A stretch of 64,000 nucleotides of DNA from Xanthobacter flavus (GTDB lineage Bacteria; Pseudomonadota; Alphaproteobacteria; Rhizobiales; Xanthobacteraceae): assembly GCF_017875275.1 (NCBI RefSeq), contig NZ_JAGGML010000001.1:1800501-1864500 (forward strand), written 5' to 3'. This document shows positions 6,147 through 20,864 of the stretch, in pieces (position 1 is the first letter of the stretch; each line of letters opens with the position of its first letter). The translations under genes were made by a program, and so were the position numbers. Under the pieces are notes generated by a model. The model did no database searches and was not told where the DNA came from. It was given only the letters and a program-made list of their open reading frames with translations.

Positions 6147-9137
6147 TCAGTGCGCCTCTTCCCAGTTCTTCGCCGCCCGCGCGTCCACCTTCAACGGCAC
6201 GGCGAGGTGCACGGCGGGCGCCGCCGCGCTCTCCATGGCGTGGCGCACGACGGGAATGGTCGCCTCGGCCTCGCCCTCGGGCACCTCGAACACCAGTTCG
6301 TCATGCACCTGCAACAGCATGCGGGCGGAAAGGCCCGCCTGTTCCAGCGCCGGCTCCATGCGGATCATGGCGCGGCGGATGATGTCGGCGGCGGTGCCCT
6401 GGAGGCGGGCGTTGATGGCGGCGCGCTCGTTGAAGGCGCGAATGGAGGGGTTCTTCGCCGCAATGTCCGGATAGTGGCAGCGCCGGCCGAACAGCGTCTC
6501 CACATAGCCGTGCTCGCGGCAGAAGGTCTTGGTCTCCTCCATATAGTCGCGGATGCCGGGGAAGCGCTCGAAATAGCGCTTGATGTACTGCCCCGCCTCC
6601 TCGCGCGGGATGGAGAGCTGGTTGGCGAGGCCGAAGGCGGAGATGCCGTAGATGATGCCGAAATTGATGGCCTTCGCCCGCCGCCGGATTTCCCCCGGCA
6701 TGTCCTGCACCGGCACGCCGAACATTTCCGATGCCGTCATGGCGTGGATGTCGAGCCCGTCGGTGAAGGCCTGCCGCAGCGCCGGGATGTCCGCGATCTC
6801 GGCCAGCAGCCGCAGTTCGATCTGCGAATAGTCGGCCGAGACGAGGAGATTGCCCTCCTCCGCCACGAAGGCGCGGCGGATGCGCCGGCCTTCCTCGGTG
6901 CGCACGGGGATGTTCTGAAGGTTGGGATCGGAGGAGGAGAGCCGCCCCGTGGTGGTGGCGGCCAGCGCATAGGAGGTGTGGACGCGCTTCGTCTCAGGAT
7001 GCACGAAGTTCGGCAGCGCGTCCGTATAGGTGGAGCGGAGCTTGGAGAGCTGGCGCCATTCCAGGATCTTCTGCGGCAGCTTGTGGCCCTGCTCGGCCAA
7101 CTCCTCCAGCGCGGTGGCCTTGGTGGACCACATGCCGGTGGCGGTCTTGGTGCCGCCGGGCAGGCCCATGCGGCCGAACAATATGTCGCCCATCTGCTTC
7201 GGCGAGCCCACGTTCAGCCGCTCGCCGGCCAGCTCCGCGATCTCGTCCTCCACCCGCGCCGCGCCCTGCGCGAATTCGGAGGAGAGGCGCGCCAGCATGG
7301 CCTTGTCGATGGCGATGCCGCGCGATTCCATGCGCGCCAGCACGGGAATGAGCGGGCGCTCCAGCGTCTCGTAGACGGTGGTGCGGCCCTCGGCGGCGAG
7401 ACGGGGCTTCAGCACCTGCCACAGGCGCAGCGTCACGTCCGCATCCTCGGCGGCGTAGGCGGTGGCGGGCTCCAGCGCCACCTTGTCGAAGGTGATCTGC
7501 GCCTTGCCCTTCCCCGTCACCTCCGAATAGCCGATGGGCTGATGGCCGAGATGGAGGACGGAGAGTTCGTCCATGCCGTGGCCGTTCTTGCCGGCATCGA
7601 GCGCGTAGGACATGCACATGGTGCAGTCGATGGGCGCAACGGTGATGCCGTGGCGGGCCAGCACCGCCTCGTCATACTTCACATTGTGCCCGACCTTGAG
7701 CGTGCCCTTGTCCTCGAGCATGGGCTTCAGCGCGGCGACCGCATCGGTGAGCGAAATCTGCCCCGGCAGCAGGCCTTCGCTGAACAGGCCGTCGCCCGCC
7801 CCCTGATGCAGCAGCGGGATGTAGCAGGCCTCATTGGGCGAGAGCGCCAGCGAGACGCCCACGAGGTCCGCCTGCATGGGGTCCAGCGAATTGGTCTCGG
7901 TGTCGAAGGCGACGACGCCGAGGTCCACGGCCTTCGCGCACCATGCCTTCAGCTCGGAAAGATCGAGGATGGTGCGGTAGGCCTTGCGGTCCACCGGCGT
8001 CGCCCGCGCGGCCTGCGCGCGCTGGTGGGCGAGATCGGCAGGGGTGGGCGTGCCGCCGGGGGCGGCGGCAGCGGCGCCCGGCTGGGCGACGGCGGCCGGC
8101 GCTTCCCCATCTGCGGCAGGCGAGGAGGCGGGCGCGAAGAGATCGCCGCCGCTCGGCGCCAGCTTCGGGTCCGGCTCCACCTCGCCGGCTTCCACACCAT
8201 AGGCCTCGGCCACACGGCGGGTGATGGTGGTGAATTCCATGGCCTTCAGGAAGGAGATCAGGCGCTTGGCGTCCGGATCTTCCAGCACGAGGTCTTCGAG
8301 CGGCACCTCCACCGCCACGTCGCGCACCAAGGTCACGAGCTGCTTGGAGATGCGCGCCGCCTCCTGATTGTTCAGAAGCGATTCCCGACGCTTGGGCTGC
8401 TTGATCTCGCCCGCGCGGGCGAGCAGCGTTTCCAGATCCCCATATTCGGCGATGAGCTGGGCGGCGGTCTTGATGCCGATGCCGGGCACGCCGGGCACGT
8501 TGTCGGTGGAATCCCCGGCCAGCGCCTGCACGTCCGTGACCTTCTCCGGCGGCACGCCGAAATATTCCTGCACCTCGCCGAGGCCGATGCGCCGCTCGGG
8601 CCGCGCCCCGCGCCCGCCGCTCTCGCCGGAGGCGGGGTCATACATGGCGACCTTCGGGCCGATCAGCTGCATCAAGTCCTTGTCGGCGGAGACGATGAGC
8701 ACGTCCGCCCCGGCCTTGACCGCCTGCTCGGCATAGGTGGCGATGATGTCGTCAGCCTCGTAGCGCGCCTGCTCCACCGGGATGAGGCCGAAGGCGCGCA
8801 CCGCCTCGCGCATGAGCGGGAACTGGGGGATCAGCTCCTCCGGCGGATCGGAGCGGTTGGCCTTGTAGTCGGGGTACAGCTCCTTGCGGAAGCTGTCCTC
8901 CGACTTGTCGAAGACGATGGCGAGATGGGTGGGGCGGATGCCCACCGCCCCGTCGCGCACGAACTGGAACAGCTTCGTGCAGAAGAGGCGCACCGCGCCC
9001 GTGGGCAGCCGGTCCGAGCGGAAATTGTACTTCCGGTCCTGGTTGATGGACTGGAAATAGGCGCGGAACACGAAGGAGGAGCCATCCACCAGGAACACAT
9101 GGTCGCCGGGCTTGAGGGGGCGGGGAGAGGGGGACAT
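6147..9137 (-). CDS. polA: DNA polymerase I
   Basis: The 996-residue product has all three Pol I domains. Residues 1-300 are the 5'-3' exonuclease (FLVDGSSFVFRAYF; RYEADDIIATYA; GDSTDNVPGVPGIGIKTA). A Pro/Ala-rich linker follows, then a 3'-5' exonuclease domain that looks active, with VAFDTETNSLDP and the AAEDADVTLRLW segment. The C-terminal 400 residues are the polymerase: motif A DYSQIELRLLAEI, motif B RRRAKAINFGIIYGISAFG and motif C VHDELVFEV. It repairs and fills gaps in DNA and removes Okazaki primers. The ATG at 9137 starts the conserved N-terminus. A long open frame on the opposite strand over the same span is a GC-skew artefact. Confidence 0.97.
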   Translation of the reverse strand: MSPSPRPLKPGDHVFLVDGSSFVFRAYFQSINQDRKYNFRSDRLPTGAVRLFCTKLFQFVRDGAVGIRPTHLAIVFDKSEDSFRKELYPDYKANRSDPPEELIPQFPLMREAVRAFGLIPVEQARYEADDIIATYAEQAVKAGADVLIVSADKDLMQLIGPKVAMYDPASGESGGRGARPERRIGLGEVQEYFGVPPEKVTDVQALAGDSTDNVPGVPGIGIKTAAQLIAEYGDLETLLARAGEIKQPKRRESLLNNQEAARISKQLVTLVRDVAVEVPLEDLVLEDPDAKRLISFLKAMEFTTITRRVAEAYGVEAGEVEPDPKLAPSGGDLFAPASSPAADGEAPAAVAQPGAAAAAPGGTPTPADLAHQRAQAARATPVDRKAYRTILDLSELKAWCAKAVDLGVVAFDTETNSLDPMQADLVGVSLALSPNEACYIPLLHQGAGDGLFSEGLLPGQISLTDAVAALKPMLEDKGTLKVGHNVKYDEAVLARHGITVAPIDCTMCMSYALDAGKNGHGMDELSVLHLGHQPIGYSEVTGKGKAQITFDKVALEPATAYAAEDADVTLRLWQVLKPRLAAEGRTTVYETLERPLIPVLARMESRGIAIDKAMLARLSSEFAQGAARVEDEIAELAGERLNVGSPKQMGDILFGRMGLPGGTKTATGMWSTKATALEELAEQGHKLPQKILEWRQLSKLRSTYTDALPNFVHPETKRVHTSYALAATTTGRLSSSDPNLQNIPVRTEEGRRIRRAFVAEEGNLLVSADYSQIELRLLAEIADIPALRQAFTDGLDIHAMTASEMFGVPVQDMPGEIRRRAKAINFGIIYGISAFGLANQLSIPREEAGQYIKRYFERFPGIRDYMEETKTFCREHGYVETLFGRRCHYPDIAAKNPSIRAFNERAAINARLQGTAADIIRRAMIRMEPALEQAGLSARMLLQVHDELVFEVPEGEAEATIPVVRHAMESAAAPAVHLAVPLKVDARAAKNWEEAH

Positions 9138-9329
9138 GGGGCGTCCTTCAAAGGTCCGGCGGCAGCGGCGACCAGCGGTCGGAATCGGGGTCGATCGAAG
9201 GCGCGCACGATGCCCGAGGGGGCGGCGGGGGACAAGAGCGGCACCGGCGGCAGCGCCGCCGATAGACGCGGCTCAAGAGGTGCACGCTCCAACGGCCAAG
9301 CCGTGCCGCGTCGCACACTTCACAGGCAT

Positions 9330-9360
9330 CTGCATCGCGTAATGACCAACACTGATGCAG
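9330..9360. promoter_or_regulatory. Inverted repeat CTGCATC-N17-GATGCAG, possible activator site of the nitrate operon
   Basis: A perfect 7-bp inverted repeat lies about 100-130 bases upstream of the predicted transcription start of the nrt operon, where an enhancer site for a sigma-54 activator is expected. It does not fit the usual NtrC box (GCAC-N7-GTGC): the half-sites resemble TGCA but the spacing is too wide. Two half-sites of an unknown activator or chance are both possible. Confidence 0.3.
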
Positions 9361-9433
9361 GCAGCGTCCGCGCCCAATTTTTAATCAGACAAGATTCAAT
9401 ATTCAAATCAGCCAGATAGGCATTTCGAGGCAG

Positions 9434-9450
9434 TTGGCCCGCCGCTTGCT
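9434..9450 (+). promoter_or_regulatory. Sigma-54 promoter of the nitrate assimilation operon
   Basis: TTGGCCCG-N4-TTGCT matches the sigma-54 consensus YTGGCACG-N4-TTGCW with one change (A to C). The invariant GG (9436-9437) and GC (9448-9449) are exactly 12 bases apart. The predicted transcription start is near 9461. Sigma-54 promoters need an ATP-dependent activator, and NtrC is the usual one for nitrogen assimilation. The start would fall one base before the first hairpin of the two-hexaloop leader, which supports both calls. Confidence 0.8.
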
Positions 9451-9461
9451 TTTAACGTTGC

Positions 9462-9509
9462 GGCGCAGTCGATGATGACCGCGCCCCATATTCGTCCCAA
9501 CGATGGGAC
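9462..9509 (+). promoter_or_regulatory. Two-hexaloop leader RNA, probable ANTAR (NasT-type) antitermination target
   Basis: Hairpin P1 (9462-9485) is a 9-position stem with one A-C mismatch closing the six-base loop GATGAT. An 8-base linker follows. Hairpin P2 (9494-9509) is a perfect 5-bp stem GTCCC/GGGAC closing the six-base loop AACGAT. ANTAR regulators such as NasT and NasR bind tandem hexaloop hairpins with A at loop position 1 and G at position 4; P2 fits exactly, P1 has G4 but G instead of A at position 1. An intrinsic terminator follows ten bases later. This is the layout of nitrate-responsive NasS-NasT antitermination leaders; neither regulator gene is in the window. Confidence 0.72.
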
Positions 9510-9518
9510 CCGCAGCAG

Positions 9519-9569
9519 AGCCGCTGACAGCCATGGCCGGAAGGTCGTGAGCATGTCCGCGGCTTTTTT
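9519..9569 (+). terminator. Intrinsic terminator inside the nitrate operon leader
   Basis: AGCCGC-T-GAC (9519-9528) pairs with GTC-C-GCGGCT (9555-9564), with one T-C mismatch, followed directly by a run of T (9564-9569). Inside the loop, CATGGCC-GGAA-GGTCGTG (9532-9549) makes a second 7-bp hairpin with G-U pairs. A terminator 47 bases before the nrtA start and after the hexaloop motif implies that transcription into the operon is conditional. Confidence 0.75.
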
Positions 9570-9615
9570 CGTTTCGGGTCTCCTCGTCCGCCTTTGCCGT
9601 CCAGGGGAAAACAAA

Positions 9616-11034
9616 ATGAGCGACGCTTCCAAGACCGAGTCCGCTGCCGCCGAATCCGCAGCCACATCGAACGCCAAGACTGAGAGCGCCAAGACTGAGA
9701 GCGCCAAGACTGAGAGCGCCACCCCGGCCGCTGCCGCCGGCGTCTCGCGCCGCTCGCTCCTGAAGGGCACGGCCGCCGCGCTCGGCACCGCTGCGCTGTT
9801 CGAGAGCATCCGCATGGCGTTCCCCGGCGGCGTGCCGGCGGCCTATGCGGCGACGCCGGAGACCACCAAGGCGACGCTCGGCTACATCGCGCTCATGGAC
9901 GCCTCGCCCCTCGTCATCGCGAAGGAGAAGGGTTTCTTCGCCAAGCACGGCGTGCCCGACGCGGAGGTGGTGAAGCAGGCCTCCTGGGGCGCCACCCGCG
10001 ACAACCTCGTGCTCGGCGGCGAGAAGAACGGCATCGACGGCGCGCACATCCTCACGCCCATGCCCTACCTGATCTCCACGGGCAAGGTGACGCAGAACAA
10101 TGTGCCGACCCCCATGTACATCCTCGCGCGCCTGAACCTCGACGCGCAGGCCATCTCGGTCTCGAACGAATACAAGGACCTCAAGGTCACGGCCAATGCC
10201 GGCGCCCTCAAGGAGGCTTTCGCCAAGAAGAAGGCCGAGGGCAAGGAAGTAAAGATCGCCATGACCTTCCCGGGCGGCACCCACGATCTGTGGATCCGCT
10301 ACTGGCTGGCCTCGGCCGGCATCGACCCGGACAAGGACGTCTCCACCATCGTGGTGCCGCCGCCCCAGATGGTCGCAAACATGAAGGTCGGCAACATGGA
10401 CGCCTTCTGCGTGGGCGAGCCGTGGAACGAGCAGTTGGTCAACCAGGGCATCGGCTTCACCGCCTGCACCACCGGCGAGATCTGGAAGCAGCACCCCGAG
10501 AAGGCGCTCGGCATGCGCGCCGACTATGTGGACAAGAACCCCAACGCCACCCGCGCCATCCTGAAAGCCGTCATGGAAGCCCAGCAATGGTGCGACAAGA
10601 TGGAAAACAAGAAGGAGATGTCGGAAATCGTCGGCAAAAGGCAGTGGTTCAACGTGCCCGTCTCCGACATCTACGGCCGCGCCATCGGCGACATCAATTA
10701 CGGCAATGGCCGCGTGGTGAAGAATTCCGACCAGTACATGAAGTTCTGGATGGACCACGCCTCCTATCCCTTCCGCAGCCATGACGCCTGGTTCATCACC
10801 GAGGACATCCGCTGGGGCAAGTTCGAGCCCACGACGGACATCAACGCCCTCGTCGCCAAGGTGAACCGCGAGGAGATCTGGCGCGAGGCGGCGAAGGAGC
10901 TGGGCGTCGCCGCCAGCGATATCCCCGCCTCGTCGTCGCGCGGCAAGGAAACCTTCTTCGACGGCAAGGTCTTCGACCCCGCCGATCCGCAGGCCTACCT
11001 CAAAAGCCTCGGCATCAAGCGCGTCGACGCCTGA
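9616..11034 (+). CDS. nrtA: Nitrate ABC transporter substrate-binding protein
   Basis: NrtA captures nitrate (or nitrite) outside the inner membrane for the NrtB-NrtC transporter. The 472-residue product has a twin-arginine signal, SRRSLLKG at residues 44-51, followed by an Ala-rich segment ending in AYAA. The mature part has the NrtA/CmpA fold: LGYIALMDASPLVIAKEKGFF, then ASWGATRDNLVLGG, then MTFPGGTHDLWIRYWLA and NMDAFCVGEPWN. Before the Tat motif is a 43-residue extension with three exact KTESA repeats. The ATG at 9616 has AGGGGAAAACA just upstream and follows the leader terminator. It is the first gene of the operon. Confidence 0.92.
   Translation: MSDASKTESAAAESAATSNAKTESAKTESAKTESATPAAAAGVSRRSLLKGTAAALGTAALFESIRMAFPGGVPAAYAATPETTKATLGYIALMDASPLVIAKEKGFFAKHGVPDAEVVKQASWGATRDNLVLGGEKNGIDGAHILTPMPYLISTGKVTQNNVPTPMYILARLNLDAQAISVSNEYKDLKVTANAGALKEAFAKKKAEGKEVKIAMTFPGGTHDLWIRYWLASAGIDPDKDVSTIVVPPPQMVANMKVGNMDAFCVGEPWNEQLVNQGIGFTACTTGEIWKQHPEKALGMRADYVDKNPNATRAILKAVMEAQQWCDKMENKKEMSEIVGKRQWFNVPVSDIYGRAIGDINYGNGRVVKNSDQYMKFWMDHASYPFRSHDAWFITEDIRWGKFEPTTDINALVAKVNREEIWREAAKELGVAASDIPASSSRGKETFFDGKVFDPADPQAYLKSLGIKRVDA
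9676..9720 (+). repeat. Three tandem 15-bp repeats in nrtA
   Basis: Three identical copies of AAGACTGAGAGCGCC encode KTESA three times just ahead of the Tat motif. Exact identity at the DNA level suggests recent slippage. The segment is in the cleaved or disordered N-terminal extension, so copy-number changes should stay in frame and be tolerated. Confidence 0.9.
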
Positions 11035-11102: not shown

Positions 11103-11996
11103 ATGTCCGTCACCGCCTTGAAGGAGCCGCCCCGCGAGGTCCGACGCTCCGGGACAGCAGAAGTCGTCAAGATGAAGCCTGCCGCCATGCGCCGGCCCTC
11201 CCGCTGGCCGGGCTATGCGAAATCCGTCGCCGCCACCGTCATCCCGCCGCTGGTGATGGTGGTGCTGCTCGGCCTGCTGTGGGAAATCCTGTGCTCCGGC
11301 GCGGGCGCCACGCTGCCGCCGCCGAGCCGCATCTGGGCGGATTCCAAGGACCTCATCCTCGACCCGTTCTTCGTCGCCGGCCCGCAGGACATCGGCCTCG
11401 GCTGGCGCGTTCTGGTCTCGCTCCAGCGGGTGGCGGTGGGCTTCGGCCTCGCGGCGGTGGTGGGCATCGCGCTCGGCGCTGTGGTGGGCCAGTCGGTGTG
11501 GGCCATGCGCGGGCTCGATCCCATCTTCCAGGTGCTGCGCACGGTGCCGCCGCTGGCGTGGCTGCCCATCGCCCTGGCGGCGTTCCGCGACAGCAATCCT
11601 TCGGCGATCTTCGTGATCTTCATCACCGCCATCTGGCCGATCATCATCAACACGGCGGTGGGCATAAGGAACATCCCGCAAGATTACCGCAACGTGGCGC
11701 TGGTTCTGCGGCTGAACCCGCTCGAATTCTTCTGGAAGATCATGATGCCGTCCGCGGCACCCTACATCTTCACCGGCCTTCGCATCGGCATCGGCCTCAG
11801 CTGGCTCGCCATCGTTGCGGCGGAGATGCTCACCGGCGGCGTCGGCATCGGCTTCTTCATCTGGGATGCGTGGAACTCCTCCCGCCTGCCCGACATCATC
11901 GTCGCCCTCGTCTACATCGGCCTCGTCGGCTTCGTGCTCGACCGCCTGGTGGCCGGCATCGGCTCCTTCGTCACCCGTGGCACGCAGGCTTCCTGA
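11103..11996 (+). CDS. nrtB: Nitrate ABC transporter permease
   Basis: The inner-membrane permease of the nitrate importer, 297 residues, has about six hydrophobic helices starting with VIPPLVMVVLLGLLWEIL near residue 45. The BPD-transport loop that contacts the ATPase, RNVALVLRLNPLEFFWKIMMPSAAPYIFTGLRIGIGLSW, sits near residues 195-235 with the expected EAA-like helices. GGAGTTCGTGCC lies before the ATG. It follows nrtA by 68 bases and precedes nrtC by 33, so all three are cotranscribed. A basic N-terminal tail of about 35 residues precedes the first helix. Confidence 0.92.
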   Translation: MSVTALKEPPREVRRSGTAEVVKMKPAAMRRPSRWPGYAKSVAATVIPPLVMVVLLGLLWEILCSGAGATLPPPSRIWADSKDLILDPFFVAGPQDIGLGWRVLVSLQRVAVGFGLAAVVGIALGAVVGQSVWAMRGLDPIFQVLRTVPPLAWLPIALAAFRDSNPSAIFVIFITAIWPIIINTAVGIRNIPQDYRNVALVLRLNPLEFFWKIMMPSAAPYIFTGLRIGIGLSWLAIVAAEMLTGGVGIGFFIWDAWNSSRLPDIIVALVYIGLVGFVLDRLVAGIGSFVTRGTQAS

Positions 11997-12029: not shown

Positions 12030-12824
12030 ATGCCCGCCTATCTCGAGCTGAGCCAGATCGGCAAGACCTTCTCCCGCGGCGCCGCCACCACCGAGGTGCT
12101 GCGCGATGTTTCCCTCGACATCGCCAAGGGGGAGTACATCTCCATCATCGGCCATTCCGGCTGCGGCAAGTCCACCTTGCTCAACATCGTGGCCGGCCTC
12201 ACCTCCGCCACCACGGGCGGGGTGATCCTCGACGGGCGGGAGGTGAATTCCCCCGGCCCGGACCGAGCGGTCGTGTTCCAGAACCACTCGCTGCTGCCCT
12301 GGCTCACCGTCTACGAAAATGTGCGCCTCGCGGTGGACAAGGTGTTCTCCGGCACCCGCTCGCGCGCCGAGCGGCACGACTGGACCCTGCACAATCTCGA
12401 CCTCGTGCAGATGGGCCACGCCAAGGACAAGCGCCCGGCGGAAGTCTCCGGCGGCATGAAGCAGCGCGTCGGCATCGCCCGCGCGCTCGCCATGGAGCCG
12501 AAGGTGCTGCTGCTGGACGAGCCTTTCGGCGCGCTGGACGCGCTCACCCGCGCCCATCTCCAGGACAGCGTGATGCAGATCCACGCCACGCTGGGCAACA
12601 CCATCCTCATGATCACCCACGACGTGGACGAGGCGGTGCTGCTCTCCGACCGCATCGTGATGATGACCAACGGCCCCTCCGCCTATGTGGGCGAGGTGCT
12701 GGAGGTGAAGCTGCCCCGTCCGCGCAAGCGCCTCGAGCTGGTGACCAACCCCACCTACCTCAAGGCCCGCGAGGCGGTGCTGAAATTCCTCCACGAACGC
12801 CACCGCTTCGTCGAGGCGGCCTGA
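12030..12824 (+). CDS. nrtC: Nitrate ABC transporter ATP-binding protein
   Basis: The 264-residue ATPase powers nitrate import through NrtB. Walker A is GHSGCGKST near residues 44-52, the Q-loop is VVFQNHSLLPW, the signature is SGGMKQRVGIARAL and Walker B is VLLLDEPFGALDALTR, followed by the H-loop ITHDVDEAVLLSDR. AAGGAGGCTTCG precedes the ATG. Cyanobacterial transporters have two different ATPases, NrtC with a fused binding domain and NrtD. Here one plain ATPase of NrtD length serves, so the symbol nrtC or nrtD is a matter of convention. Confidence 0.92.
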   Translation: MPAYLELSQIGKTFSRGAATTEVLRDVSLDIAKGEYISIIGHSGCGKSTLLNIVAGLTSATTGGVILDGREVNSPGPDRAVVFQNHSLLPWLTVYENVRLAVDKVFSGTRSRAERHDWTLHNLDLVQMGHAKDKRPAEVSGGMKQRVGIARALAMEPKVLLLDEPFGALDALTRAHLQDSVMQIHATLGNTILMITHDVDEAVLLSDRIVMMTNGPSAYVGEVLEVKLPRPRKRLELVTNPTYLKAREAVLKFLHERHRFVEAA

Positions 12825-12887: not shown

Positions 12888-13313
12888 ATGACTCCGAGCC
12901 AGATTGATCTGATCCAGGATTCGTTTCGCAAGGTCGTTCCCATCTCCGACACCGCCGCCGCTTTGTTCTACGGCCGGCTGTTCGAGATCGCGCCGGAGGT
13001 GAAGCCCCTGTTCAAGGGCGACATGAGCCTCCAGGGCGCCAAGCTCATGGCGACGCTCGGCCTCGTGGTCGCCGGCCTCAACGATCTGTCGAAGATCGTC
13101 CCGGCCGCCGAGAGCCTCGCCCGCAAGCATGTGGGCTACGGCGTGAAGGACGAGCATTACGCCCCCGTCGGCGCCGCGCTCATCTGGACGCTGGAGCAAG
13201 GCCTCGGGCCGGACTTCACCCCCGAGACGAAGGCCGCGTGGATCGAGGCCTACGCCATCCTCTCCTCCGTCATGATCGCCGCCGCTGCCAAGGCGCCGGT
13301 CGCGGCCGAGTAA
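12888..13313 (+). CDS. Single-domain globin of the nitrate assimilation operon
   Basis: The 141-residue protein is a bacterial haemoglobin without a reductase domain. SFRKVVPISDTAAALFYGRLFEIAPEVKPLF is the A-to-CD region, and His81 in ARKHVGYGV is the expected proximal haem ligand, followed by KDEHYAPVGAALIWTLEQ. Homologous globins in alphaproteobacterial nitrate operons (Bjgb in Bradyrhizobium) protect against nitric oxide formed as a by-product of nitrate and nitrite reduction. It lies between the transporter genes and the FAD oxidoreductase, which probably reduces it or the reductases. CCAGGAGATATCC precedes the ATG. Confidence 0.9.
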   Translation: MTPSQIDLIQDSFRKVVPISDTAAALFYGRLFEIAPEVKPLFKGDMSLQGAKLMATLGLVVAGLNDLSKIVPAAESLARKHVGYGVKDEHYAPVGAALIWTLEQGLGPDFTPETKAAWIEAYAILSSVMIAAAAKAPVAAE

Positions 13314-13323
13314 GGAGGCAGGC

Positions 13324-14538
13324 GTGAGCGAGCCCCTTCTCGTCATCGGCAACGGCATGGCCGCCGCGAAGCTCTGCGAGGAGCTGACCTCCCGCGCGCT
13401 GGGCCGCCACGCCGTTGCGGTGATCGGGGCGGAGCCCTGCCTTGCGTACAATCGCGTGCTTCTGTCCGAGGTGCTCGCCGGCCACATGACCGCCGCCGAG
13501 GCGGAGATGAAGCCCGCCACCTGGTGGCGCGAGCGGGGCGTGACGCTGCAATACGGCACCCCCGCCGCCGCCATTGACCGCGCCGCGCGCAACGTGGTCC
13601 TCGCCGACGGCCGCCGCCTGCCCTTTGGCAAGCTGGTGCTGGCCACCGGCTCCCACCCCATCCGCCTGCCGCTGCCCGGCATGGCGCTGCCCGGCGTCCA
13701 CACCTTCCGCGATCTGAAGGACGTGGAAGCCCTGCTCGCCGCCGCCGCTGTTCCCGGAACCCGCGCCGTGGTCATCGGCGGCGGCCTGCTCGGCATCGAG
13801 GCCGCGGCGGGCCTTGCCGGCGCGGGCGTCGAGACCCGCCTCGTCCATCTCATGGACCGGCTGATGGAGCGCCAGCTCGATGTCGCCGCCGCCGGCTTCC
13901 TCAGGCGCGCCGTGGAGGCCAAGGGCATCGAAGTGCTGCTCGGCGCCGCGAGCGAGGCCATAGAGGGCGACAGCCATGTCACCGGCCTGCGCCTGAAAGA
14001 CGGCCGCGTCATTCCCGCCGACATTCTCGTGGTGGCCTGCGGCGTCACCCCCAATGCGGACCTTGCCCGCGCGGCGGGGCTGGAGGTGAAGCGCGGCATC
14101 GTGGTGGACGATACCCTCGCAGCCTCCGATCCCGACATCTTCGCCATCGGCGAATGCGCCGAGCATCGCGGCATGACCTACGGCCTCGTCGCCCCGGCCT
14201 ATGAGCAGGCTGGCGTGCTCGCCCGTCGCCTCGCGGGAGAGGACGCGCGCTATGCGGGCTCCGTCGTCTCCACCAATCTCAAGGTGTCGGGCGTGCCCGT
14301 CTTCTCCGCCGGCGACGTCACCGGCGGTCCGGGCACCGAGGACATCGTGCTCACCGATCGCGGCCTCGGCGTCTATCGCCGGCTCATCGTGAAGGACGGC
14401 CGGCTCGCCGGCGCCGTGCTGTTCGGCGACACGGCGGACGGTCTCTTCTATCTCGACCTCATCACACGCCGCACCCCCATCGCCGCCATGCGCCCTGAGC
14501 TTGCGTTCGGCCGCGATGCGGTGGCCGCCGCTGCCTGA
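13324..14538 (+). CDS. FAD/NAD(P)H-dependent oxidoreductase (NirB N-terminal-like flavoprotein)
   Basis: The 404-residue protein has two dinucleotide-binding folds: FAD at the N-terminus (LLVIGNGMAAAKLCEEL) and NAD(P)H at about residue 155 (AVVIGGGLLGIEAAAGLAGAG), then the FAD-closing motif DPDIFAIGECAEH. It resembles the N-terminal half of assimilatory NADH-nitrite reductase NirB and the Flp flavoprotein, known in Bradyrhizobium to feed electrons to NasC and NirA. It probably does that here, and may also keep the globin reduced. The start is a GTG with GTAAGGAGGCAGGC before it, ten bases after the globin stop. The 3' end is followed by nirA after 22 bases. Confidence 0.88.
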   Translation: MSEPLLVIGNGMAAAKLCEELTSRALGRHAVAVIGAEPCLAYNRVLLSEVLAGHMTAAEAEMKPATWWRERGVTLQYGTPAAAIDRAARNVVLADGRRLPFGKLVLATGSHPIRLPLPGMALPGVHTFRDLKDVEALLAAAAVPGTRAVVIGGGLLGIEAAAGLAGAGVETRLVHLMDRLMERQLDVAAAGFLRRAVEAKGIEVLLGAASEAIEGDSHVTGLRLKDGRVIPADILVVACGVTPNADLARAAGLEVKRGIVVDDTLAASDPDIFAIGECAEHRGMTYGLVAPAYEQAGVLARRLAGEDARYAGSVVSTNLKVSGVPVFSAGDVTGGPGTEDIVLTDRGLGVYRRLIVKDGRLAGAVLFGDTADGLFYLDLITRRTPIAAMRPELAFGRDAVAAAA

Positions 14539-14560
14539 CAAGAAGAAGAAAGGAAACCCC

Positions 14561-16318
14561 ATGGGCGCCGATTTCACCACCGACCAGAAACGCTATCTGG
14601 AAGGCTTCGTCTCCGGCGCGAAGGCGGTGCAGATCGCACGGAGCGCGCCCGCGCCCGCAGTCGCGCCGGTGGCGGAGATGACCGGCCCGGACGCCGCCAG
14701 CCACCGCGCCATGGCCCGCTTCGAGGCGGAGGGCAGGAAGCTCACCCCGGAAGAGAAGGCCAAGCGCGAGGAACTGGGCCTCGACGCCTATGACCGCATG
14801 CGCGCCGCCGCCCGCGAGGGCGTGTTCCCGAAGGGGCCCGACCTGCTGCGCTGGAAGTATCACGGCCTGTTCCATGTCGCCCCGGCGCAGGACAGCTACA
14901 TGTGCCGCATGCGCATTCCCGGCGGCATCCTCACCCACTGGCAGTTCCGGGGCGTCGCCGACATCGCGGAGCGCCATGGCGGCGGCTACACCGACATCAC
15001 CACCCGCGCCAATCTCCAGATCCGCGAGATTGCGGCCACTGACGGCATCGCCGTGCTGGAGGGGCTCGTCGCCCTCGGCCTCACGGCGAAGGGCTCGGGC
15101 GCGGACAATATCCGCAATGTCACCGGCACGCCCACCGCCGGCATCGACCCGCAGGAACTCATCGACACCCGCCCGCTGGCCAGCGGGTGGCACCATTACA
15201 TCCTCAACAGCCGCGACATGTACGGCCTGCCGCGCAAGTTCAACGTGGCCTTCGACGGCGCCGGCACCATCGGCGCGCTGGAGGACACCAACGACATCGG
15301 CTTCCAGGCGGTGGAGGTGATGGACGGCTTCGGCGTCGACGGAGGCGTGTGGCTGCGCCTCGTGCTGGGCGGCATCACCGGCCACAAGGATTTCGCCCGC
15401 GACACCGGCATCGTCGTGCGCCCGGACGAGGCGGTGGAGGTGGCGGCGGCCATCGTGCGCGCCTTCATCGACACCGGCGACCGCACCGACCGCAAGAAGG
15501 CGCGGCTGAAATACGTGCTCGATTCCATGGGCTTCGACGGCTTCCTGAAGCTGGTGGAGGACAAGCTCGGCCGCCCCTTCACCCGCCTTGCCGCCGCGGC
15601 GGTGATGCCGCGGCCGGAGCCGGACCGGCTCGCCCATCTCGGCGTGCATCCGCAGAAGCAGGCGGGGCTGAATTATGTGGGCGTGGCGACGCCCGTGGGC
15701 CGCATGAACGCGGCGCAGATGCGCGGCCTCGCCGACATTTCGGCGCGCTCCGGCGACGGCGACATCCGCCTCACCGTCTGGCAGAACCTGCTCATTTCCG
15801 GCGTTGCCGATGCGGATATCGCGGCCGTCACGGACGCGGTGGAGGCCCTCGGTCTCACCACGAAGGCAACACCGCTCCAGGCCGGCATCGTCGCCTGCAC
15901 CGGGGCGAAGGGCTGCCGCTTCGCGGCGGCCGACACCAAGGGCACCGCGCGGGCCATTCTGGCCCACTGTGAAGAGCGCGTCGCCCTCGACGGGCCGGTG
16001 AACATCCATGTCACCGGCTGCCACAATTCCTGTGCCCAGCATTACATCGGCGATATCGGGCTGATCGGGGCGCGGGTGCCCGTCAATGACGACGGGGACA
16101 CGGTGGACGGCTATCACATCCTCGTCGGCGGAGGCTTCGGCAGCGCGGCCGCCATCGCCCGCGAGCTTTACCAATATGTGCCGGCGGACGACGCCCCGGC
16201 CGTGGTGGAACGCCTGCTGAAAAGCTGGAAGGCCCACCGCACGCCGGGCGAGACCTTCGCCCAATTCACCCGCCGCCTCGATCCCGATGCGCTGAAGGCG
16301 CTGGCGGCGGCGGCATGA
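14561..16318 (+). CDS. nirA: Siroheme-dependent assimilatory nitrite reductase (ferredoxin type)
   Basis: NirA reduces nitrite to ammonium with six electrons using siroheme coupled to a 4Fe-4S cluster. The cluster ligands are visible as Cys446, Cys452 (CTGAKGC) and Cys487, Cys491 (CHNSC), the C-x5-C...C-x3-C pattern of nitrite/sulfite reductases. The two ferredoxin-like half-domains start near residues 110 (SYMCRMRIPGG) and 355 (LNYVGVATPVGRM). The nitrite over sulfite assignment comes from the operon. The ATG at 14561 has AGAAAGGA upstream and gives 585 residues. The siroheme comes from CysG at 3786; likely electron donors are the flanking flavoproteins or a ferredoxin. Confidence 0.9.
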   Translation: MGADFTTDQKRYLEGFVSGAKAVQIARSAPAPAVAPVAEMTGPDAASHRAMARFEAEGRKLTPEEKAKREELGLDAYDRMRAAAREGVFPKGPDLLRWKYHGLFHVAPAQDSYMCRMRIPGGILTHWQFRGVADIAERHGGGYTDITTRANLQIREIAATDGIAVLEGLVALGLTAKGSGADNIRNVTGTPTAGIDPQELIDTRPLASGWHHYILNSRDMYGLPRKFNVAFDGAGTIGALEDTNDIGFQAVEVMDGFGVDGGVWLRLVLGGITGHKDFARDTGIVVRPDEAVEVAAAIVRAFIDTGDRTDRKKARLKYVLDSMGFDGFLKLVEDKLGRPFTRLAAAAVMPRPEPDRLAHLGVHPQKQAGLNYVGVATPVGRMNAAQMRGLADISARSGDGDIRLTVWQNLLISGVADADIAAVTDAVEALGLTTKATPLQAGIVACTGAKGCRFAAADTKGTARAILAHCEERVALDGPVNIHVTGCHNSCAQHYIGDIGLIGARVPVNDDGDTVDGYHILVGGGFGSAAAIARELYQYVPADDAPAVVERLLKSWKAHRTPGETFAQFTRRLDPDALKALAAAA

Positions 16319-16523: not shown

Positions 16524-18152
16524 ATGAGCCTCCAGTCCCGCCCCCCCGTCGTCCCCGTATTGCCCGACAGCGCCCCCTTCTCGGCGGAGCAGCGCGCGTG
16601 GCTGAACGGCTTCTTCGCCGCCATCCTCTCCACCGACGCCGGGCACGCGCCCATGGCCCTGTCGGCCGGTGACGCGGCGGCGCTGATGCCGGACATCTCC
16701 GCGCCCGCGCCTGCGGAGGAGGACGATGGCGCCCCCTGGCACGACCCATCCATGCCGCTTCCCGAGCGCATGGCGCTGGCCGAGGGCAAGGCCCTGCCCC
16801 GGCGCATGATGGCGGCCATGGCGCAGCAGGATTGCGGCCAGTGCGGCTATGTCTGCGAGACCTATGCGCAGGCGCTTGCGAGCGGCGCGGAGAGCAAGCT
16901 CAATCTCTGCGCCCCCGGCGGCAAGGAGACGCTGCGCATGCTGAAGCAGCTGGCGGCGGAAACCTCCGCCCCCGCCGAGGCGGCGCCCGAGGCCCCGGCC
17001 ACGGCCATCGTGCACCCGGCCCCCGGCCACGCCGCGCCCGCCACCGGCACCCGCGAAAATCCCGGCGAAGTCACCTTCCTCTCCCGCACCCGCCTCAACA
17101 AGGCGGGCTCGGAGAAGGAGACCTGGCACGTGGAGTTCGATCTCGCCGGCTCCGGCATCGACTATGCCGCCGGCGACAGCTTCGGCGTGTTCCCGGTCAA
17201 CGATCCCGGCCTCGTCGCGCAGGTGCTGGAGGCGCTGCACGCCCCCGCCGATTTCCCCATTGCCGGCCATACGCTGGCCGAGGTGCTGGCCCGCGAGGTG
17301 TGCCTGAAATCGGCGCCGGATGCGCTCTTCACCCTCATCTCCTATCTGGTCGGCGGGGAGCGCAAGGCGAAGGCCCGCGCGCTGGCCAATGGCGAGGACC
17401 CGGACGGCGATGCCGCCACCCTCGACGTGCTGGCGGCGCTCACGAAGTTCCCCGGCATCCGCCCCGATCCGGAGGCGCTGGTGGAGTGCCTGGAGCCGCT
17501 GCAGCCGCGCCTCTATTCCATCTCCTCCAGCCCCGTCGCCACCCCCGGCCGGCTCACCCTGACCGTGGATGCGGTGCGGTATGATCTGGAGGGCCGCACC
17601 CGGCTCGGCGTCGCCTCCACCTTCCTCGGCGACCGGCTCGCGCCGGGAACGCGGATGAAAGCCTATATCCAGAAGGCGCACGGCTTCGCCCTGCCGCAGG
17701 ATCTGGCGAAGGACGTCATCATGGTCGGCCCCGGCACGGGTATCGCGCCGTTCCGTTCCTTCCTGCACGAGCGGCTGGCGACGAAGGCCCCGGGCCGCAA
17801 CTGGCTGTTCTTCGGTCACCAGCGGCGCGAGACGGATTTCTTCTATGAGGACGAGCTTTCCGGCCTTCAGGCCGCCGGCTGCCTGACCCGCCTCGACACC
17901 GCATGGTCCCGCGACGGCGCCGGCAAGGTCTATGTGCAGGATCGCATCCGCGAGGCGGGCGCGGAATTGTGGGACTGGCTGAAGGACGGTGCGCATTTCT
18001 ACGTCTGCGGCGATGCCAAGCGCATGGCGAAGGACGTGGAAAAGGCGGTGGCTGATGTCGCCGCCACCCATGGCGGTCTTTCGGCGGAGGCGGCGGCGAA
18101 ATTCGTCGCCGATCTCAAGACCGCCGGGCGCTATCAGGCCGACGTGTACTGA
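16524..18152 (+). CDS. Fe-S/FAD/NADPH oxidoreductase (CysJ-like, no flavodoxin domain), probable electron donor of nitrate assimilation
   Basis: The 542-residue protein combines an N-terminal 4Fe-4S module with a CysJ/ferredoxin-NADP reductase body. Four Cys, C104-x2-C107-x3-C111-x17-C129, stand in DCGQCGYVC and LNLCAPGG. The rest holds the FAD-binding RLYSISSSP near residue 330, the NADPH-binding GPGTGIAPFRSFL near 405 and the C-terminal YVCGDAKRMAKDVEKA. CysJ carries a flavodoxin domain at its N-terminus; here that is absent and an Fe-S module replaces it. The usual annotation is sulfite reductase alpha subunit, but the position between nirA and the nitrate reductase gene suggests it moves NADPH electrons to these enzymes. 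Confidence 0.82.
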   Translation: MSLQSRPPVVPVLPDSAPFSAEQRAWLNGFFAAILSTDAGHAPMALSAGDAAALMPDISAPAPAEEDDGAPWHDPSMPLPERMALAEGKALPRRMMAAMAQQDCGQCGYVCETYAQALASGAESKLNLCAPGGKETLRMLKQLAAETSAPAEAAPEAPATAIVHPAPGHAAPATGTRENPGEVTFLSRTRLNKAGSEKETWHVEFDLAGSGIDYAAGDSFGVFPVNDPGLVAQVLEALHAPADFPIAGHTLAEVLAREVCLKSAPDALFTLISYLVGGERKAKARALANGEDPDGDAATLDVLAALTKFPGIRPDPEALVECLEPLQPRLYSISSSPVATPGRLTLTVDAVRYDLEGRTRLGVASTFLGDRLAPGTRMKAYIQKAHGFALPQDLAKDVIMVGPGTGIAPFRSFLHERLATKAPGRNWLFFGHQRRETDFFYEDELSGLQAAGCLTRLDTAWSRDGAGKVYVQDRIREAGAELWDWLKDGAHFYVCGDAKRMAKDVEKAVADVAATHGGLSAEAAAKFVADLKTAGRYQADVY

Positions 18153-18188: not shown

Positions 18189-20864
18189 ATGAACGCCCCG
18201 CTCGCCTCACCCCCTTCGGTGAAGACCACCTGCCCCTATTGCGGCGTCGGCTGCGGCGTGAAGGCGACGCCCGACGGGCGCGGCGGCGCGCTCATCGAGG
18301 GGGATCATGACCACCCCGCCAATCTCGGCCGCCTGTGCTCCAAGGGCGCGGCGCTGGGCGAGACGCTGGGGCTCGGCACCCGCCTGCTCCATCCCATGGT
18401 GCGCGGCGCGGACGGCGCGCTCGCCCGCGCGACGTGGGACGAGGCGCTCGACCGCATCGCCTCCGACCTCAGGGACATCATCGACCGGCACGGGCCGCAG
18501 GCGGTGGCCTTCTATCTCTCCGGCCAGCTTCTGACCGAGGATTATTACGCCGCCAACAAGCTGGCCAAGGGCTTCCTCGGCACGGCCAACGTGGACACCA
18601 ATTCCCGCCTGTGCATGTCCTCCTCCGTCGCCGGCCACAAGCGCGGCTTCGGCTCGGATACGGTGCCGGGCAGCTATGAGGATCTGGATGGGGCGGACCT
18701 CATCATCCTCACCGGCTCCAACACGGCGTGGTGCCATCCTGTCCTGTTCCGCCGCATGGAACAGGCGCGCAAGGCGCGGGGCACGAAGCTCGTCGTACTC
18801 GATCCGCGCCGCACCGACACGGGGGCCGAGGCGGACCTTTTCCTGCCGCTGGCCCACGGCACGGATGCGGTGCTGTTCTCCGGCCTGCTGGTGCATCTGG
18901 CGCAGAGCCCGGCCTTCGATGCCGCCTATGTGGAGGCGCACACCACCGGCTTCGCCGAAGCGCTGGAAGCCGCCCGCGCGGTGGCGCCCGATGCCGAAAC
19001 CACCGCGCGCGCCTGCGGGCTGGCGGTGGAGGACGTGGAACGTTTCTTCGCGCTGTTCACGGAGACCGCGCACGCCGTCACCTGCTATTCCCAGGGGGTG
19101 AACCAGTCGGCGGTGGGCACCGACAAGGTGAACGCCATCCTCAATTGCCACCTCGCCACCGGCCGCATCGGGCGGGAGGGCATGGGGCCGTTCTCCCTCA
19201 CCGGCCAGCCCAATGCCATGGGCGGGCGCGAGGTGGGCGGGCTCGCCAACCAGCTCGCCGCCCACATGGGCTTTTCCCCCGCCGAGGTGGACCGCGTGCG
19301 CCGATTCTGGGGCGCGCCCCACATGGCGGAGCATGAGGGCCACAAGGCGGTGGACATGTTCGCCGCCATCGGCCGGGGCGAGATCAAGGCCCTGTGGGTG
19401 ATGGGCACCAACCCCGCCGTGAGCCTGCCGGAGGCGGATGCCGTGCGCACGGCGCTGGAAGGGCTGGAGCTGTTCGTCCTGTCCGAGAATGTGGTGGCCA
19501 ACGACACCGCCGCCTGCCGCCCGCATGTGATGCTGCCCGCCGCCGCCTGGGGCGAGAAGGACGGCACCGTCACCAATTCCGAACGCCGCATCTCCCGCCA
19601 GCGCCCCTTCCTGCCCCGCCCGGCCGAGGTGAGACCGGACTGGTGGGCGCTCAAGGGCGTGGCCGAGCGCCTCGGCTTCGGCGCGGCCTTCCAATGGCGC
19701 GGGCCGGCGGACATCTTCCGCGAGCACGCCGCGCTGTCCGGTTTCGAGAATGGCGGGACGCGCGATTTCGACATCTCCGCCTTCGGCGGCCTCAGCGAGA
19801 CCGCCTATGAGGATATCGCGCCGGTGCAATGGCCCGTCCCCGCCGGCCGGGTGGAGGGCACGGCGCGCCTCTTCGCGGAGGGCGGCTATTTCACGCCGGA
19901 CCGGCGCGCCCGCTTCGTTGCCCCGCGTCCCGTGGCGGCCGCGGAAAGCACCCCGCCCTTCCCCTTCCTGCTCAATACCGGCCGCATCCGCGACCAGTGG
20001 CACACCATGACCCGCACCGGCCTTGCCCCCCGCCTCGGCGCGCACATCCCGGCGCCGTTCGTGGCGGTGCATCCGGACGATGCCGCGCCGCTGGGGCTCG
20101 CCACGGGCATGCTGGCGGAGGTGACAAGCGCCCACGGCCGCGCGGTGCTGGAGGTGGTGGTGGATGCCGGCCAAAGGCAGGGCACGCTCTTCGCCCCCAT
20201 CCACTGGAGCCACGCCAATTCCTCCGACGGACGCGTCGGCGCGCTGGTGCATGCGGTGACCGATCCGGTCTCCGGCCAGCCCGACGCCAAGGCGACGCCG
20301 GCCGCCCTCGCGCCTTATGCCGCACCGTTCGAGGGCTTCGTGCTGGCGCGCCGCCACATGCCGCTGCCGGAGGGTGTGTGGTGGGCGCGCGCGGCGCTGG
20401 AGGGCGGCTATGGCTGGCGCATCGCCGGCCGCATGGCACCTGAGGACTGGGCGCAATGGGTGACGGCGGAAGGGCCGGCCGATGTGGCCGAGCTGAGCGA
20501 CACGCCCTCCGGCCTCTATCGCGCCGCCGCCTTCGATGCGGACGGGCGGCTCGATTTCGCGGTGTTCATCGGCGCCGCCGGCCAGCGCGTGGCGTGGGAT
20601 GCGCTGAAGGGGCTTCTGGCCTCCGAGGTCTCGGCCGCCGACCGGCGCCTCCTCCTCTCCGGCCGCCGCGCCGGGGCGGGGGCGTCGTGCGGGCCGCTGG
20701 TGTGCGCCTGCTTCGGCGTGCCGAAGGACACCATCCTCGCCGCCATCCGGGACGGCGCGGCCGATGCGGCAGCAGTGGGCGCCAGGCTCAAGGCCGGGAC
20801 CAATTGCGGCTCCTGCCTGCCGGAAATCCGCAAGCTCATTCTGGAGGCGAAGGCGCCGGCGTGA
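18189..20864 (+). CDS. nasA: Assimilatory nitrate reductase, catalytic molybdenum subunit
   Basis: The enzyme reduces nitrate to nitrite in the cytoplasm. The N-terminal 4Fe-4S cluster ligands are Cys15, Cys18, Cys22 and Cys50 (TTCPYCGVGC ... RLCSKG). The molybdenum ligand is the Cys in NSRLCMSSSV, and MGTNPAVSLPEAD, GREVGGLANQLA and the C-terminal RTGLAPRLGAHIPAPFVAVHP are typical of the bis-MGD family. The last 60 residues form a BFD-like 2Fe-2S domain with LVCACFGV and NCGSCLPEI, as in NasA-type assimilatory enzymes, likely the entry point for electrons. At 891 residues it fits that class, known as NasC in rhizobia. It is the last gene of the operon. Confidence 0.94.
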   Translation: MNAPLASPPSVKTTCPYCGVGCGVKATPDGRGGALIEGDHDHPANLGRLCSKGAALGETLGLGTRLLHPMVRGADGALARATWDEALDRIASDLRDIIDRHGPQAVAFYLSGQLLTEDYYAANKLAKGFLGTANVDTNSRLCMSSSVAGHKRGFGSDTVPGSYEDLDGADLIILTGSNTAWCHPVLFRRMEQARKARGTKLVVLDPRRTDTGAEADLFLPLAHGTDAVLFSGLLVHLAQSPAFDAAYVEAHTTGFAEALEAARAVAPDAETTARACGLAVEDVERFFALFTETAHAVTCYSQGVNQSAVGTDKVNAILNCHLATGRIGREGMGPFSLTGQPNAMGGREVGGLANQLAAHMGFSPAEVDRVRRFWGAPHMAEHEGHKAVDMFAAIGRGEIKALWVMGTNPAVSLPEADAVRTALEGLELFVLSENVVANDTAACRPHVMLPAAAWGEKDGTVTNSERRISRQRPFLPRPAEVRPDWWALKGVAERLGFGAAFQWRGPADIFREHAALSGFENGGTRDFDISAFGGLSETAYEDIAPVQWPVPAGRVEGTARLFAEGGYFTPDRRARFVAPRPVAAAESTPPFPFLLNTGRIRDQWHTMTRTGLAPRLGAHIPAPFVAVHPDDAAPLGLATGMLAEVTSAHGRAVLEVVVDAGQRQGTLFAPIHWSHANSSDGRVGALVHAVTDPVSGQPDAKATPAALAPYAAPFEGFVLARRHMPLPEGVWWARAALEGGYGWRIAGRMAPEDWAQWVTAEGPADVAELSDTPSGLYRAAAFDADGRLDFAVFIGAAGQRVAWDALKGLLASEVSAADRRLLLSGRRAGAGASCGPLVCACFGVPKDTILAAIRDGAADAAAVGARLKAGTNCGSCLPEIRKLILEAKAPA

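Follow-up and report, generated by a model that had tools for sequence, protein, structure and literature searches.

A sigma-54-type leader with three hexaloops, a probable NasT-controlled attenuator of the nitrate assimilation operon of Xanthobacter flavus

Nitrate assimilation genes of Xanthobacter flavus are preceded by a leader that is very probably a sigma-54-started, NasT-controlled attenuator, in a variant with three hexaloop hairpins. We reached this reading from sequence comparison, starting from the window, a stretch of 64,000 nucleotides of the single-contig, 5.35-Mb genome. Leaders of this kind usually have two hexaloops; the three predicted in leaders of Xanthobacteraceae are the new point, and a literature search, one part of which was weak because Antarctic papers swamped it, returned no prior description of a three-hexaloop leader.

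The leader lies in the 478-base gap between polA (6147-9137, minus strand) and the start of the nrtA-like gene at 9616. At 9435-9450 on the plus strand stands the sigma-54 box TGGCCCGCCGCTTGCT, with GG at 9436-9437 and GC at 9448-9449; the 12 bases from G to G, already noticed in the initial annotation, are those of the GG-N10-GC pattern at -24/-12 of sigma-54/NtrC promoters. Under a simple weighting of the sigma-54 consensus, no 16-mer on either strand of the window scored higher than the box. Genome-wide, a looser sigma-54 pattern matched 42 times and its reversed control 52 times, a lack of enrichment that counts against the attenuator reading; the case for the box therefore depends on the constancy of its position among relatives. 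We compared 81 leaders, namely, that of the window and those of 80 loci among 550 confirmed nrtA relatives, and found a box scoring at least 12 in 79. The other two are L062, whose contig begins 43 bases upstream, and L080, whose best box scores 11.6; L080 lacks a strong box but has hexaloops, which also counts against the reading. The box in the window predicts a transcription start at about 9461 on the plus strand.

Two possible NtrC sites lie upstream of the box on the plus strand. The site CGCACACTTCACAGGCA at 9312-9328 matches 9 of 11 positions of the Paracoccus NtrC motif reported in PMC5424462 and 7 of 10 positions of TGCAC-N7-GTGCA; it is weak alone, and its distance equals that of sites in several relatives. 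The weaker site, at 9343-9359, matches 7 of 10 positions of TGCAC-N7-GTGCA and, on the opposite strand, 8 of 11 positions of the Paracoccus motif. That even the best matches of the window are imperfect for either motif counts against the attenuator reading. Across the whole set, NtrC-like sites are enriched upstream, both for TGCAC-N7-GTGCA (66 of 106, versus 188 of 2,120 shuffles, with a plain shuffle used wherever the dinucleotide walk failed) and for the motif of PMC5424462 (70 of 106, versus 273 of 1,060).

Three hexaloop hairpins follow on the plus strand. H1 (9462-9485; GGCGC-A-GTC / GATGAT / GAC-C-GCGCC) begins one base after the predicted start and has its loop at 9471-9476; H2 (9494-9509; GTCCC / AACGAT / GGGAC) has its loop at 9499-9504. 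Both had been recognized in the initial annotation, as had A1 and G4 of the H2 loop. H3 (9513-9526; CAGC-AGAGCC-GCTG), the presumed antiterminator (P2), is identified by the terminator-arm rule, folding, and a control on T runs. An intrinsic terminator (9517-9569, plus strand) closes the leader, with its stem at 9517-9566 and its T run at 9564-9569; it had been seen before, with limits of 9519-9569. The earlier description of a two-hexaloop ANTAR leader with a terminator was thus right as to type but overlooked H3. As it is H3 with which the terminator competes, the expected hexaloop pair includes this hairpin.

Folding of 9461-9569 gave -55.8 kcal/mol (z -5.67), a value that none of 200 shuffles equaled. 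As the RNA prefix was lengthened, H1, H2, and H3 together formed the best fold up to 9527, and H1 and H2 with the terminator formed it at 9569; enforcing all three hairpins on the full piece to 9569 was 12.4 kcal/mol worse than the terminator fold. The loop and 3' arm of H3 are the start of the terminator stem, so the two exclude each other in the manner of the ANTAR antiterminator P2 (PMC3369936, PMC7496416), while H2 has no overlap with the terminator. Two hexaloops with A1 and G4, as in ANTAR targets, are present in H2 (AACGAT) and H3 (AGAGCC), H1 having G1, and the C:G pair that closes the loop from below in such targets (PMC7496416) is found in all three. The linkers measure 8 nt (H1-H2) and 3 nt (H2-H3). 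EutV control of eutP is reported to be harmed when the linker is cut to 3 nt (PMC3369931), which counts against the attenuator reading; linkers of 5 to 12 nt are described for Enterococcus faecalis eut (PMC3369931), and 2 to 25 nt were accepted for actinobacterial targets (PMC8164766). A longer fold pairs 9505-9512 (the 3' arm of H2 plus the linker) with approximately 9574-9581 beyond the T run, and read-through RNA might therefore refold.

The terminator rule detected a terminator in 72 of the 79 boxed leaders (all except L008, L009, L012, L027, L043, L066, and L082). In 70 of these 72, the 5' arm of the terminator contains the 3' arm of a hexaloop hairpin, and the loop had A1 and G4 in 69; L025 and L077 have no such hairpin, and L044 has the loop GACGCC. 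Applied to T-run sites elsewhere in these loci, a nearly identical rule (T runs of at least 4 only, arms within 75 bases, no term for T-run length) found an A1/G4 hexaloop at 14 of 501 sites and some overlapping hexaloop, whatever its letters, at 233. Inside the window, with the leader excluded, A1 and G4 occurred at 3 of 23 sites (plus strand, 0 of 8; minus strand, 3 of 15). The terminator-arm rule for H3 was adopted after the results of a noisy first picker had been seen, and the control was run afterwards; that picker, guided mainly by stem energy, had A1 and G4 in 49 of its 73 picks, often took H2 or an inner hairpin, and was abandoned. When the best hexaloop between about +6 and +20 was picked blind to its letters, A1 and G4 appeared in 60 of the 79 boxed leaders. 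Because the rows are related, all such leader counts overstate the number of independent events. Three Ancylobacter leaders (L008, L009, and L012) keep A1/G4 hexaloops and have no T-run terminator by our rule, an observation that counts against the attenuator reading.

The initial annotation had proposed looking among relatives for compensatory stem changes, and the stems of H1 and H2 do covary. In a set of 18 leaders picked for the presence of H2, the A1, G4, and closing C:G of that hairpin never vary (18/18), and 94.7% of stem cells are paired; the stem covariation score was 0.478, versus 0.198 after shuffling (0 of 500), with two of five measures unremarkable (pairs changed on both sides, 234/500; pair types, 29/500). 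A model, R1, built from 18 leaders selected for having H2, scored 63 bits on the leader of the window and matched nothing else in the same genome above 19.4 bits; the weak matches there (E of 0.14 and worse, five of them folded) were left unannotated. R1 matched in 32 of 61 family genomes, that of the window included.

The leaders take three forms across groups. Those of Rhizobiaceae mostly combine H1 (+10 to +12) with H3 (+56 to +60), the loops 46 to 49 apart and the middle hairpin not a constant hexaloop, and those of Bradyrhizobium, Methylocystis, Chelatococcus, and Mesorhizobium type mostly combine H2 with H3, the loops 16 to 19 apart; H3 alone was seen in L011 and L013. All three loops occur in Xanthobacteraceae, in the window, in nine loci of the comparison set (L003 to L009, L012, and L026), and in nine of 29 further family loci (among which L122 did not match the H3 pattern and no sound leader was obtained for L116). 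These 19 comprise 17 distinct leaders, in every one of which the loops of both H2 and H3 show A1 and G4. In H1, the closing C:G pair, A2, and G4 are likewise present in all 17, with A1 in 12 and G1 in 5 (the window, L005, L006, L101, and L104); A1 in 12/17 versus 34/34 for H2 and H3 gives a nominal P of 0.003 at face value, with related rows. The G1 of the first loop, flagged earlier as a deviation, reads as natural variation. At least 7 of the 9 stem pairs of H1 form in 12 of the 17 leaders and 3 to 6 in L007, L008, L009, L012, and L026, and the stem covaries (0.281 versus 0.170 shuffled, 0/500; pair types, 123/500). With A1 in only 12 leaders and weaker stems in five, H1 is conserved but looser than H2 and H3. 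On a tree of nrtA, with labels set by hand and rows not viewed singly counted as H1 plus H3, the three-loop label needs two changes, a count that carries no direction; the Ancylobacter loci L008, L009, and L026 stand apart. The nearest named relatives by nrtA, among the matches listed, are Azorhizobium and an uncultured Xanthobacter.

The proteins that such a leader would call for are encoded in the genome. A nasT gene (196 aa, receiver and ANTAR domains) lies ~51 kb upstream of the leader, and a nasS-like gene overlaps or directly follows it, so that the nasS-nasT look-up suggested by the initial annotation succeeded; ntrC, above the cut-off at 726.6 bits, and a single copy of rpoN were also found. 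Two ANTAR domains occur in the genome, one of them in the NasT-type protein. The second ANTAR gene (L002:302-3145, near 3213.5 kb of the same genome) stands between AmiC-type binding-protein-like and acetamidase/formamidase-like genes, by eye an AmiC-AmiR-amidase arrangement. In 11 of the 29 further family leaders, nasT is directly upstream, its end ~1.4 kb before H3. A NasT relative was present in 47 of 50 relatives' genomes tested (50 of the 80). The three without one are L027 and L043, in whose leaders neither a terminator nor an A1/G4 loop was seen, and L044, where H2 is present and the loop of H3 begins with G1; these absences are not firm, since the genomes are metagenome assemblies of 2.0 to 3.1 Mb. 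One Bradyrhizobium leader, L082 (1870-2000), has a sigma-54 box and no hexaloops in a genome with a NasT relative, which counts against the attenuator reading.

Profile matches on the plus strand agree with the earlier view that the leader and its terminator precede nrt-nir-nas genes. An nrtA-like substrate-binding protein gene (9616-11034; PF13379; similar plasmid genes are annotated as CmpA/NrtA type), with a Shine-Dalgarno-like AGGGGA at its start, is followed by nrtB, a permease gene (11103-11996; TIGR01183, over cut-off), and a gene for the nrt ATP-binding protein (12030-12824; TIGR01184, over cut-off). Between these transporter genes and a NirB-like FAD reductase part (13324-14538; TIGR02374 positions 1 to 389, below cut-off) sits a globin gene (12888-13313; PF00042, over cut-off), which recalls the hemoglobin gene of the Bradyrhizobium narK operon (PMC4724949). 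Then come nirA (open frame 14501-16318, its true start maybe internal; NF007126, over cut-off), a sulfite-reductase-alpha-like flavoprotein gene (16524-18152; NF004859, over cut-off), and a nasA-like molybdopterin nitrate reductase gene (18189-20864; NasC/NasA and Fdh-alpha models, below their cut-offs).

From this arrangement, we infer a start site, NasT binding, a nitrate response, and a role for each loop. Under nitrogen limitation, NtrC would activate the promoter at 9435-9450, RNA would begin near 9461, and H1, H2, and H3 would fold on emerging from the polymerase. When nitrate is absent, NasS would keep NasT, the more stable terminator would displace H3, and transcription would stop near 9569. 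Nitrate or nitrite would release NasT, whose ANTAR dimer would grip two hexaloops, H3 and a partner; that partner is most likely H2, with H1 an extra or early contact. Because H3 held by ANTAR would prevent the terminator, the polymerase would continue into nrtA and the following genes. That nitrogen limitation and nitrate would act in series on these genes is plausible.

Dual control of nas operons has already been described, which makes the leader of the window a new case of a known logic. Klebsiella nasF starts from an NtrC/sigma-54 promoter and is under such dual control. Its leader in Klebsiella oxytoca shares with ours the A1/G4 hexaloops, the closing C:G, the P2 hairpin over a terminator, and nitrate as the signal (PMC7496416, PMC3369936), but it answers to the one-component NasR and has two loops rather than three. 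In Paracoccus denitrificans, NasT binds the nasA leader, which has hairpins, and nitrate releases NasT from NasS (PMC3795266); expression of nasT and nasA requires NtrB, and that of the nas genes requires NasT (PMC5424462). In that species, NtrC has been shown to act at nasT, whereas the window has its sigma-54 box at the structural operon itself. The nas genes of Pseudomonas stutzeri are reported as NtrC dependent (PMC8443478), and NasT-interaction hairpins have been reported in Bradyrhizobium leaders (PMC6759348). Enterococcus EutV leaders, which respond to ethanolamine and belong to a different phylum, resemble ours in their dual hexaloop and in a box, AGCAANGRRGCUY, on the 5' part of the terminator that is close to H3, AGCAGAGCCGCTG (PMC3369931).

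Other explanations differ in how much of the leader they leave to NasT. H1 might make no contact with NasT in this clade, being a stabilizer of the 5' end or a relic, with only H2 and H3 read. We consider this a real but somewhat unlikely possibility: it would suit the G1 loops and the five poorly paired H1 stems among the 17 three-loop leaders, as well as several Bradyrhizobium-like leaders (e.g., L014 and L018) that keep H2 and H3 without an H1-type loop, but the invariance of A2, G4, and the closing C:G and the covariation of the stem argue against it, and in Rhizobiaceae it is H1 that regularly accompanies H3. That the loops are a by-product of a G+C-rich stem, the promoter being constitutive and the terminator an ordinary factor-independent one, is highly improbable. 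G+C-rich hairpins are indeed common, as the overlapping hexaloops at nearly half of the control T-run sites attest, but A1 and G4 set the leaders (69/72) sharply apart from those controls (14/501), and a promoter and terminator scan of 9140-9700, with a loop limit of 8 bases, returned neither a sigma-70-type promoter nor a terminator. Just as improbable is attenuation through translation, either of a leader peptide or of an NrtA extended at its amino terminus, starting from the ATGs at 9472 and 9475 within H1. The nrtA frame is open back past +1 in the window, where the frame from 9472 would encode 520 aa; the Shine-Dalgarno-like motif, however, is absent before these ATGs and present before 9616, in each of the 10 three-loop leaders tested, a motif of this type precedes an ATG located at +154 to +180, and half of the 10 have the frame closed downstream of +1.

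The attenuator reading may extend to a known RNA family. The Rfam search advised by the initial annotation gave no match at gathering score in the window, and none was found in 20 loci searched of the 80 relatives. A match to BcKCsr2 in the window (17.2 bits, E of 0.13) was set aside as weak, the available text of PMC10987360 giving it no tie to nitrate. The narK RNA (RF03032) scored 13.7 bits in the window, below its gathering score of 43.2, and 35.9 bits (E of 1.6e-5, full length) on the L030 leader (1757-1849), still below it; the leader is thus alike in make-up rather than a member. The RF03032 consensus begins with GGCaC...UUGCU, which resembles a sigma-54 box, continues with the hexaloop AACGGC, and ends in CGACAAAGACGUCGC; this last segment can fold into a hexaloop hairpin, but the structure line of the family shows it unpaired. 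RF03032 matched in 15 of 299 genomes of the phylum, over the cut-off in 11. At 12 narK loci (L126 to L137), a box scoring at least 13.5, a terminator, a first A1/G4 hexaloop, and a second one (at least 3 pairs each) were each found in 11, and an ANTAR gene was present in all 12 genomes. Like our leader, the narK RNA has a sigma-54 box, an A1/G4 hexaloop at about +12, a second hexaloop on the terminator, and an ANTAR gene in the genome; unlike it, the narK RNA has two loops, 22 to 25 nt apart. Given the boxes, hexaloop pairs, terminators, and ANTAR genes at the loci examined, the narK RNA appears to be an ANTAR attenuator with a sigma-54 start, its second hexaloop left unpaired in Rfam. The literature searched contained no paper linking narK RNA to ANTAR attenuation, and the original description may say so.

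For this Rfam family, the result offers a plain reading, that the narK RNA would be a sigma-54 promoter plus an ANTAR attenuator. For the Xanthobacteraceae, a further and doubtful suggestion, made by analogy, is that the terminated leader (~9461-9569), once released as a small RNA, could titrate NasT as a self-made decoy. It would retain the full H1-H2 site with its 8-nt linker, because the terminator uses up only H3. An RNA that sequesters a response regulator is reportedly part of the eut system, to which this decoy is likened. If it were true, premature termination would yield a second regulator, nitrate induction would acquire a threshold or delay, and the three-loop form would be a switch and a sponge at once, while leaders with H1 and H3 or with H2 and H3 would keep one loop. 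More broadly, these leaders show a fixed hairpin, H3, with a changing partner, H1, H2, or both, and such natural variants could be used to test how an ANTAR dimer chooses two loops of three.
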